Shown: piece after piece, positions 50,001 through 52,681 of the stretch
Position numbering within the stretch: position 1 is the first letter of the stretch
Layout of the letters: each line of letters begins with the position of its first letter
DNA from: Paramacrobiotus metropolitanus
Lineage: Eukaryota > Tardigrada > Eutardigrada > Parachela > Macrobiotidae
Length of the DNA: 64,000 bases
Assembly (NCBI RefSeq): GCF_019649055.1
Contig: NW_026570384.1
Location: forward strand, 124,001 to 188,000
Direction: 5' to 3'
Position numbers and translations under genes: made by a program
Notes under the pieces: generated by a model
The model's database searches: none
What the model saw: the letters and a program-made list of their open reading frames with translations, nothing else
Told to the model about the DNA's origin: nothing

Positions 50001-52681
50001 CTCTTCTCGACACTAAGAACTTCGCTTACCTTCTCAAAAATCGTTGGTATCATTCCGGGAAAACGAAGGATGCCATCAATCAGCATGGTCTCCGCGATTT
50101 CTTCCGACACATTCTCGCCAGCTATTCCACCGGCGCTCTGACTTCGGAGGTAAAGCGCCAGAGGCACGGAGAAGGCAAAGTTGGGCAAGAGGTCCAAATT
50201 TTTAATTTCCTTGAGAAAAGCAAACCTAATTAAAGTCATCAGAAAGTTTGATTACAAAGTATTCGAAGAATTACCTTCAGAGTATCGTGGAAAGCTAAGA
50301 GGTAGGCATAATCCTTCGCTTTCAACGCCAGGTAATCCATCATTAAAATCACAGCCAAAGGATCGTCTTTCGGACTCAAACTGCGACAAAATACATTTGC
50401 TATCCACCATGAAACGCGCTAAATTAATGCCGAATCGAACGAATGTAAAAAAAGTTCATTTCAAAAGTGAACATCAATTCTTACTTGAACAAATACTTTC
50501 CCAGTTCTAAGGCAGTTTTGGGAAAGCGTGGGACGGTCAGGATAATGTGTTTGAAGAGCGCTACAAAGTATGAGCGATTAGCCGGGTAACGATAGCTCAT
50601 TCGATGTAGTTCCGGATGGTTTCGCAGACGATGGTCAAAACACTGTTGAAATCCGAACAACGTATGTTCTACAAAAACCAATTAAATGCATCTCGTTTTG
50701 TTAATTCAAGGGAAGACTAATTAATTTACCAATAGCTTGGCGAGCACTGGAATAGTTATCATCCCGCTCGTGGATACTGCCCATCAAAATCAACGCATCC
50801 GAATGGAATGGAAACTGGTGCAGAATGTCCTGCAAGAAAACCATTACAAACCAGCTCCACACTTGGTACCGAACAAGACAACTGTTTCGTGGATCGCTTT
50901 TACTGACCCGGATAACGTGATCCTGATTGGTGTAGACCATTAACAGAAAATCATGTTGCAAATCCTTATATCGACGGGATCGCTTGAAGACAATCCAGTT
51001 TGGCCGTGCAGGATCGTCTTCGACATGCACATCTGTAAAACACGTATTACAATGAATACAGCAATAAAAAGTTTACTCAAAAATGGAGGCGGTGCTTTTA
51101 AAGCAAACCACAAAAGTAACTGGTGTAATGTTAATCATTAGAAAAGTGCAACATTTTTTTTGAAAAGAGTGTTTCTCAAAAAAACAAATTGAGCAAAGTT
51201 TTGAGAAGAAGGGCATAGATAAAATCAACAAACAGTTTTTAACTCACATCGATCAATCAAATCTTTGACTTCCCGTTCGGGCATGTTGGCGGGCGTTTGC
51301 ACAAATAAATGCTGCACACCTCGAACACCGCGCCCACGTTCCCCACGCGCTCGGGTCATCTGTGCCACCTCCGGCACTGTCGCCTGCATGTACAGCGCAC
51401 TGACTCCCACTGTCTTCTGGAACTCGTACCGATAATTCAACAGCTTTGGATTGATCCCTTCACCGGATTTAAATTTGCGCTGCTCCGCCGCCAACACCGG
51501 GGCCTGCTCATTCTGCGCCGCGAACATGGCCAGCAGCTCCTCCCCGGTCATCTTGGCCAGTTCGGGGGTGGCTTCGGATTTGCTGGCCGTTTTACGGTTC
51601 TTCTTCTTGGTGCGCTTCCTCTTGCCGGCCGACAACTGAGAGTCCGAGGCCTCCTCCAGATGGGGCTCGTCGCAGGAGGCCGGCGAGAGGGCGGCATTCT
51701 GGGCGGTGTCGCTGCTGAAGGTGTCGTTGGCTTCGTCGTCGGAGGGCAGCGCCAGAAAGCGGTTGGCGGTGGGTCGGCTGGGCTCCGAGTCGTCGCTGGA
51801 CTCGGAGGTGGAGGCCTCCTCGGAGGCACTGGGTTTGCGGGCGGGGACGGGAGGTTTCTTCGAAGAGCCGGGTTTCTTCGACGCCACTACCGGCTTGGTC
51901 TTGGCTGTGGGCTTCACTGTCTTTGACTACATAACCACAATAATCTAGTTGATTTGTTCTGGTTCTATTATATTTACTTTTATCGTATTCAATACTCAAA
52001 TAAAAAACAAACCTCGAAAATGATTTACCTATTTCAGTCTATTTTCACACTCCTCTAGCTAACTACTAATAGTAATTTTTCACGTTGAAAAGCCAATGTA
52101 GTGCGAAAAAAACAAACAGATCGACCTCGAGAACGTTTAGCCGTAGGAATACTTAAGTCCCACCGCTGTGAGTCAGTAAGCGAAGTTTTCGTGGACAGAT
52201 TACATGAAAAGAAAAGTCGACTATGTAATACATTTTTGAGAAAAGTATCTGTTACAGATAAAACCTATTAAAGATGGGACGCGAAGTTGTTATCCTTAGC
52301 CGCGTCACGTACTTTTTTGTTGGTAGTGGTTTGGATGGGCGGTTCTTCCGATGCGATCTCCTCCGCGGGGACGTCATCGCCGTGGGCCTCCTGCGCCTGC
52401 TGCAACTGTTTGCGATACTTGTTCAGACGAGCGCGCAGCTGGCCCAAATGGTGTTCCGTGGCTACAATCAAGAATACCAGATAACAAGACAGCTACAAGC
52501 AAGCAGTAACATTTCTTCGTCATGAGTGGAGTTATTATAGTTATAACACGAATTTCACGGCCAGAGGAAAATAGCTTTACTTAAAATATCGCTTACTTCG
52601 TAGGCGCTGAATCGTACCTTTGTTTTTCTGGGTTCTGGATATTTCCTTCTCGATCTCGTTAATTTTCTCCAAGAGAGACAT
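47038..52681 (-). CDS. TCF25: TCF25/Rqc1 homologue with DRG2-like N-terminus
   Basis: Twelve exons: 52681-52618, 52461-52313, 51926-51248, 51032-50908, 50829-50730, 50668-50485, 50380-50275, 50209-50030, 49661-49399, 49365-49263, 48173-47931 and 47508-47038. All phases match; 888 residues. Residues 298-651 match TCF25: RRYKDLQHDFLLMV, RYPANRSYFVALFKHI, DPLAVILMMDYLALKAKDY, LDLLPNFAFSVPLALYL and SNIWRHVILLNIPE. The acidic/basic linker (SESSDDSEPS, KRKRTKKKNRK) fits the family N-region. TCF25/Rqc1 acts in ribosome-associated quality control with Ltn1. Exons 1-2 (residues 1-71) instead match DRG2 ([34 protein letters not shown]), with no GTPase domain, and the usual MSSRALRRL start is not found. 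A LINE lies in the exon 10-11 intron. The intron after exon 9 is only 33 nt. Confidence 0.85.
48234..49048 (+). mobile_element. 5'-truncated LINE tail in TCF25 intron
   Basis: A frame of 226 codons (48234-48914) is the end of a non-LTR reverse transcriptase: VKHLGVILDEHLSWADHVKKV is the typical thumb-region motif, followed by QSHLDYCSTVWSGAS and PYNLRSRN. The 3' untranslated part ends in repeated ATA/TAA units (about 49028-49048), as in I/Jockey/CR1-type elements. It is antisense to TCF25, inside the 1.1-kb intron between exons 10 and 11. The frame is still open, so insertion is fairly recent, but the catalytic YxDD region is missing. Confidence 0.85.

Follow-up and report, generated by a model that had tools for sequence, protein, structure and literature searches.

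A probable DRG2-type N-terminal hairpin spliced in frame onto a TCF25/Rqc1-type protein in Paramacrobiotus metropolitanus

Background

The DRG proteins probably help stalled ribosomes to resume; when rescue fails, the 60S subunit that remains is acted on by TCF25. According to a review, the HTH and S5D2L domains appear to be unique to the DRG GTPases (PMC8629797). In yeast Rbg1 the HTH is described as residues 1-44, two amphipathic helices that form a zipper with five helix-2 leucines and are joined by the pairs Glu12-Arg39 and Glu14-His27; helix 2 normally packs on the S5D2L domain too (PMC3510508). The same study reports that Rbg1 without its HTH keeps its co-sedimentation with polysomes and loses its function in vivo, that recruitment of Rbg1 to polysomes depends on the TGS domain and on Tma46, and that Rbg2 does not co-sediment with polysomes (PMC3510508). 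Rbg2 on a collided disome is described as contacting the 60S subunit through its G and HTH domains, at sites that include the stalk base, the sarcin-ricin loop and H89, and as touching A-site tRNA with S5D2L (PMC8040806).

The tip of the HTH is also a target of modification, in that JMJD7 hydroxylates DRG2 at K21 and DRG1 at K22; residues 16-40 of DRG1 serve as a peptide substrate for the enzyme (PMC11400632). The isolated HTH of Xenopus DRG1 (aa 1-46), expressed alone, was reported to bind microtubules in vitro (PMC5577222); the domain can thus be made as a separate module, yet it has another possible partner. TCF25, for its part, promotes K48-linked chains while Listerin acts on stalled polypeptides on the 60S subunit (PMC12868832).

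An eleven-exon gene model

In the window, by which is meant the whole 64 kb stretch of Paramacrobiotus metropolitanus DNA that was analysed, an 11-exon model on the minus strand, running from 52681 to 47913, gives a single open frame of 727 residues with one terminal stop. Exon bounds were picked from GT/AG sites and from resemblance to TCF25, and the script varied the ends of exon 5 (2 ends) and exon 11 (20 ends) only. The exons are as follows (a slash marks an exon boundary here and below).

Exon 1, 52618-52681, minus strand: start codon and helix 1 of the DRG2-type HTH; phase-1 donor
Exon 2, 52313-52461, minus strand: turn and helix 2 of the HTH, then a 30-residue tail without DRG resemblance; phase-0 donor AAA/GTACGT
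Exon 3, 51248-51926, minus strand: Lys/Pro-rich and Ser/Glu-rich region (by eye), after which the TCF25 part begins; directly after the acceptor TAG
Exon 4, 50908-51032, minus strand: TCF25
Exon 5, 50730-50829, minus strand: TCF25; its own match to PF04910, at 15.9 bits, falls short of the 24.2 cut-off
Exon 6, 50485-50668, minus strand: TCF25
Exon 7, 50275-50380, minus strand: TCF25
Exon 8, 50030-50209, minus strand: TCF25
Exon 9, 49429-49661, minus strand: TCF25
Exon 10, 49263-49365, minus strand: TCF25
Exon 11, 47913-48173, minus strand: TCF25 C-terminus and the stop codon TGA at 47915-47913

Exon 1 ends ...AACAAAG/GTACGA. Exon 2 is preceded by ...TTGTAG, opens with CCACGGAACACC and closes with AACAAAAAA/GTACGT, and the acceptor in front of exon 3 reads ...TTATGTAG. 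GT-AG ends are found at 10/10 introns, which measure, from intron 1 to intron 10, 156, 386, 215, 78, 61, 104, 65, 368, 63 and 1089 bases, with a G+C content of 0.28-0.45; the phases of introns 1-3 are 1, 0 and 1. In leave-one-out scoring the donor of intron 1 obtains 8.6 and its acceptor 4.7, those of intron 2 obtain 7.0 and 6.5, and the other eight introns range from -1.5 to 10.0 for donors and from 1.5 to 8.3 for acceptors; the matrices are small (ten sites), so that for introns 1 and 2 the scores indicate only that nothing is unusual.

A sequence-only reading of this DNA had proposed that exons 1 and 2 join to give a DRG-type sequence and that the donor of exon 2 joins in phase 0 to the first TCF25-type exon. 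Both joins hold up in the sequence. The phase-1 junction at 52618/52461 yields a stretch that matches DRGs among PDB sequences at E=5.3e-11, and beyond exon 2 the frame stays open across exon 3 and the eight exons that come after it. Exon 3 alone has no Pfam match, and its frame opens right after the acceptor's own TAG, so that it cannot be extended upstream without a splice. The join is well supported at the level of sequence, splicing in vivo would be expected to follow it, and the fusion protein is probably real.

The N-terminal hairpin

When 177,635 distinct PDB sequences were searched, residues 3-46 matched yeast Rbg2 (E=5.3e-11) and Rbg1 (about 4e-9), and the sole match of the N-terminus up to E=1 besides the DRGs was STI1, at 0.19. 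In tblastn with composition statistics off, residues 1-41 of a provisional human DRG2 sequence scored 40.8 bits at exons 1 and 2, spanning intron 1; base-by-base shuffling of the window within 200-base blocks, repeated 100 times, gave at most 23.1 bits. A Pfam scan of the 71 N-terminal residues returned 8 families up to E=1, all under their curated cut-offs, and no DRG-type model matched. The best of the eight, Med9, reached 17.8 bits against a cut-off of 26.9 and was taken as coiled-coil-type noise.

The hairpin was compared with four reference DRGs, the two human sequences being provisional. Over 39 residues, 30 are identical to human DRG2, 26 to human DRG1 and 24 to each of Rbg2 and Rbg1; since human DRG2 itself shares 29/39 residues with Rbg2, the window hairpin (24/39) is the more distant of the two. 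Twenty of the 23 columns that are invariant among the four DRGs are kept, the changes being A15S, K31R and A35N. Of the three columns that separate DRG2 from DRG1, two agree with DRG2 in the window protein and the third with neither. With only four references, two of them provisional, DRG2 is likely but not proven to be the source of the hairpin in preference to DRG1.

Sequence comparison thus identifies at the start of the predicted protein the N-terminal HTH that is characteristic of DRG GTPases. Equivalents of the residues that pair within the Rbg1 hairpin are present (E11 with R38, E13 with H26), and four of the five helix-2 leucines, by our own assignment, are kept as L27, L30, L34 and L41, the fifth being Y37. 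The TQKNKAT motif is present as well, with K21 at the position of DRG2 K21; a lysine at the HTH tip in this context would be a candidate for hydroxylation by JMJD7. Resemblance to DRGs is lost at about residue 41, close to where the HTH ends. Given that the HTH of Rbg1 spans residues 1-44, the captured piece amounts to roughly a single domain of solved structure, the cut lying close to the domain boundary.

The TCF25 part and its start

Residues 313-655 match positions 3-337 of the 337 in the PF04910 profile at 234.9 bits (E=1.8e-69, cut-off 24.2), and residues 321-466 of the spliced protein match yeast Rqc1 in PDB entry 9ofv (9ofv_v) at E=1.8e-10. Human TCF25 and yeast Rqc1 start with M-S-x-R-A-L-R-R-L, which is not a formal family definition. 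The claim that the locus has no TCF25-type start of its own was borne out to the extent that no convincing one was found, the motif scan giving loose matches only. A loose form of the start pattern, run in six frames over the whole window, occurs at 8 places, 0 of them with R-A-L-R: four are on the plus strand, and on the minus strand they lie at 60271, 9864, 2178 and 51284, of which 60271 is upstream on that strand, past the neighbouring gene, and 51284 is within exon 3. A second scan was confined to single-exon, phase-0 starts on the minus strand, from 51927 to 56500. It gave 50 combinations of an ATG and a donor that can be joined to 51926. None is of the R-A-L-R type, and a single ATG at 53080 (MPSRSTTKL..) accounts for all 4 that survive a loose filter. 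As the M-S-x-R-A-L-R-R-L start was not found, the gene would encode a TCF25 with a different N-terminus.

The tail of exon 2 and the rest of DRG2

An intact DRG2 exon 2 should run on towards the conserved P-loop region. In the window, the tail of exon 2 (residues 42-71) has no such resemblance: its best local score against the provisional continuation of DRG2 was 15, which was equalled or exceeded by 197/300 shuffles of the tail. It nevertheless reads as coding. With the TCF25 part as training set, a codon model gives it 0.96 bit per codon, whereas 546 overlapping stop-free stretches of 30 codons from the longer introns and the upstream DNA reach at most 0.48, with a mean of -0.40. The same model gives 0.79 bit per codon for the HTH part of exon 2, 0.08 for exon 1 and 0.36 for the 14 codons past the exon 2 donor; with synonymous choice only, the totals are 10.6 bits for the tail, 11.6 for the HTH part of exon 2, -2.1 for exon 1 and 0.6 for the read-through. 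Exon 1 is short, and its codon usage neither supports nor excludes coding; it therefore rests on homology, and exon 2 on homology and codon usage together. A tail which looks like coding sequence yet not like a DRG means that exon 2 is not unchanged from an intact DRG2 gene, and this point weighs most heavily against misassembly and against the sharing of a first exon.

That no GTPase domain follows the hairpin had also been claimed, and it agrees with what was found here. The provisional human DRG2 sequence, searched by tblastn against the whole 64 kb, gave a next-best place beyond the HTH at E=0.32, and at E 0.01 Pfam finds nothing besides PF04910 in the 727-aa protein, with no G, S5D2L or TGS domain. 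Having neither a GTPase with an S5D2L insert nor a TGS domain, the fusion protein is not a DRG. An arrangement in which the TCF25 gene is nested inside a DRG2 intron was set aside; it needs an intron exceeding about 52 kb, when those of this gene measure 61-1089 bases.

Relatives were sought at E 0.01 in a phage collection, with none found, and among prokaryote and viral contigs, where 123 and 29 pattern matches respectively were obtained and none was confirmed. These collections hold no animal genomes, and the single-protein query used reaches close relatives only, so that the searches are silent on how rare the fusion is.

A proposed role for the hairpin

We favour, with reasonable though not firm confidence, the reading of an intact TCF25/Rqc1 gene that received its first coding exons from DRG2, the hairpin serving as an extra 60S contact and as a JMJD7 site. 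Through duplication, a 5' part of DRG2 comprising the start codon, helix 1, the intron and helix 2 would have landed upstream of TCF25 and been spliced in frame, replacing the start that TCF25 had; what was captured would be the HTH hairpin and nothing of the GTPase. Exon shuffling of a DRG2 module onto Rqc1 had been suggested from the sequence, and the in-frame DRG-type N-terminus is consistent with it. The further suggestion of a ribosome-contacting module, taken as one that recruits Rqc1 to ribosomes, is not supported in that form. The HTH of Rbg2 contacts the 60S subunit (PMC8040806), but Rbg1 is reported to stay in polysomes without its HTH and Rbg2 not to co-sediment with them (PMC3510508).

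In the favoured reading the hairpin would fold autonomously at the tip of a long linker that is probably disordered, and the TCF25 domain would act with Listerin on 60S subunits that carry nascent chains. The hairpin, which in the fusion protein is without S5D2L, the normal packing partner of helix 2, would add a weak contact to the same factor-binding region of the 60S subunit as Rbg2 touches with its G and HTH domains, namely the sarcin-ricin loop, H89 and the stalk base. K21 at its tip would be hydroxylated by JMJD7, which would make an RQC factor a further kind of JMJD7 substrate. The proposal that TCF25 has gained a contact facing the 60S subunit, and with it a JMJD7 site, draws on the 60S contacts of Rbg2, the action of JMJD7 on K21/K22 of the DRGs and that of TCF25 with Listerin. 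This specific mechanism of 60S contact, drawn by analogy, is tentative and less likely than not; the polysome results on Rbg1 and Rbg2 and the lack of S5D2L in the fusion protein count against it. A bolder version is distinctly unlikely: that an animal lineage has linked RQC to the DRG system, the hairpin docking on the 60S site that DRG2 uses before subunit splitting and oxygen-dependent hydroxylation by JMJD7 switching TCF25. If it were true, one and the same modification would affect both the rescue of a stall by DRGs and the RQC output that follows.

Alternative readings

The DRG2 5' piece may instead have been captured for its promoter and start codon, the hairpin being a tolerated extension with no role of its own. 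Exons 1 and 2 open the gene on its 5' side, so that a promoter could have come along with them, and the HTH is reported to be dispensable for the association of Rbg1 with polysomes (PMC3510508). We regard this as rather unlikely in view of the 20/23 DRG-invariant columns that are kept, the lysine that is hydroxylated in DRGs and the intra-hairpin pairs included; such conservation suggests constraint, unless the capture was recent.

It is quite improbable that exons 1 and 2 are a truncated relic of DRG2 or a separate gene of 85 residues that stops at the TAA at 52268, TCF25 beginning elsewhere, at another exon or an internal ATG. The frame does continue to that TAA (ORF 52268-52492), the splice to 51926 is predicted from the sequence, and a phase-0 join from the ATG exon at 53080 (MPSRSTTKL..) is conceivable. 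On the other hand, the codon signal falls from 0.96 to 0.36 bit per codon across the exon 2 donor (over just 14 codons after it), the loose filter passes 4/50 phase-0 ATG/donor combinations and none of the R-A-L-R type, and a start at the first ATG within exon 3 would lose 125 residues of that exon.

That the hairpin ties TCF25 to microtubules instead of to the 60S subunit recalls the in vitro binding by the isolated HTH of Xenopus DRG1 (PMC5577222) and is very improbable: this evidence comes from the DRG1 domain, DRG2 not having been tested according to a review (PMC8629797), and the HTH alone is reported neither to bundle nor to polymerise or stabilise microtubules (PMC5577222). This account and that of a captured promoter both include the fusion, so that the confidences given to the several readings do not sum to one.

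Hardly probable at all is a misjoin, within intron 2, of a DRG2 5' end to a TCF25 gene in the assembly; the join is seen in one contig, but in place of sequence leading towards the P-loop there are 30 unrelated, coding-like residues ending at a donor in phase with exon 3, and a chance join between two introns, which fits the phase in about 1/3 of cases, leaves the non-DRG tail unexplained.

Other features of the window

In intron 10 of the TCF25 gene, on the opposite strand (48216-48914, plus), lies a frame of 232 aa that we take to resemble the C-terminal part of a non-LTR reverse transcriptase; it has no Pfam match at E 0.01. Scans of the window with Rfam and for tRNAs gave 0 and 0 matches. 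The remaining observations are listed below.

28922-32017, minus strand: retroelement, with a 731-aa frame that has a reverse transcriptase domain (PF00078, 7e-15); adjoining frames are tyrosine recombinase-like by eye, and the element may be DIRS-like
11390-12472, 13523-14602, 15780-16814, 25263-26369 and 35584-36798, plus strand: five frames of 344-404 aa, mutually similar by eye, accompanied by shorter frames between about 4895 and 33356; perhaps a tandem family of chemosensory receptors (of the two frames scanned with Pfam, 13523-14602 gave 7tm_7 at 0.0035, under the cut-off, and 35584-36798 no match)
9298-10285 and 38962-40400, plus strand: two gene pieces, related by eye and ionotropic receptor-like; 39924-40400 gave Lig_chan at 0.0079, under the cut-off
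44590-45273, minus strand: exon of a rhodopsin-type GPCR (PF00001, 2.2e-15)
About 53390-56393, plus strand: divergent neighbour of the fusion gene, with an acyl-CoA dehydrogenase domain (PF00441, 4.7e-10) on 55947-56393; the frame 53390-53869 has a sub-cut-off match to another family, and its membership of the same gene is a guess

Relation to known systems

The apparent replacement of the first part of TCF25 by a DRG2 hairpin is a domain combination of which no description was found in the open-licence literature. A search of that literature for DRG and TCF25 together (Rbg2/Rqc1, NULP1) gave nothing relevant, and among the titles listed on domain fusions of DRGs there was no such fusion; automatic annotation of the Paramacrobiotus metropolitanus genome or of related genomes may already list the protein. 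If expressed, it would qualify the published view of the HTH as seemingly unique to DRG GTPases. A natural covalent link between a DRG part and TCF25 would be physical evidence that a single particle brings both pathways together. Being almost precisely a single structural domain, freed from its GTPase, the captured unit would furthermore amount to a natural experiment on what the DRG hairpin, with the lysine that JMJD7 hydroxylates in DRGs, does on its own.

With the DRG2/Rbg2 and DRG1/Rbg1 GTPases the fusion protein shares the N-terminal HTH, which is closest to that of human DRG2 and keeps the lysine targeted by JMJD7; it differs from them in having no detected G, S5D2L or TGS domain. It differs from TCF25 (NULP1) and yeast Rqc1 in that a DRG HTH and a linker stand at the N-terminus without the M-S-x-R-A-L-R-R-L start, and it is like them in its full-length PF04910 domain and in its sequence match to Rqc1 in 9ofv.
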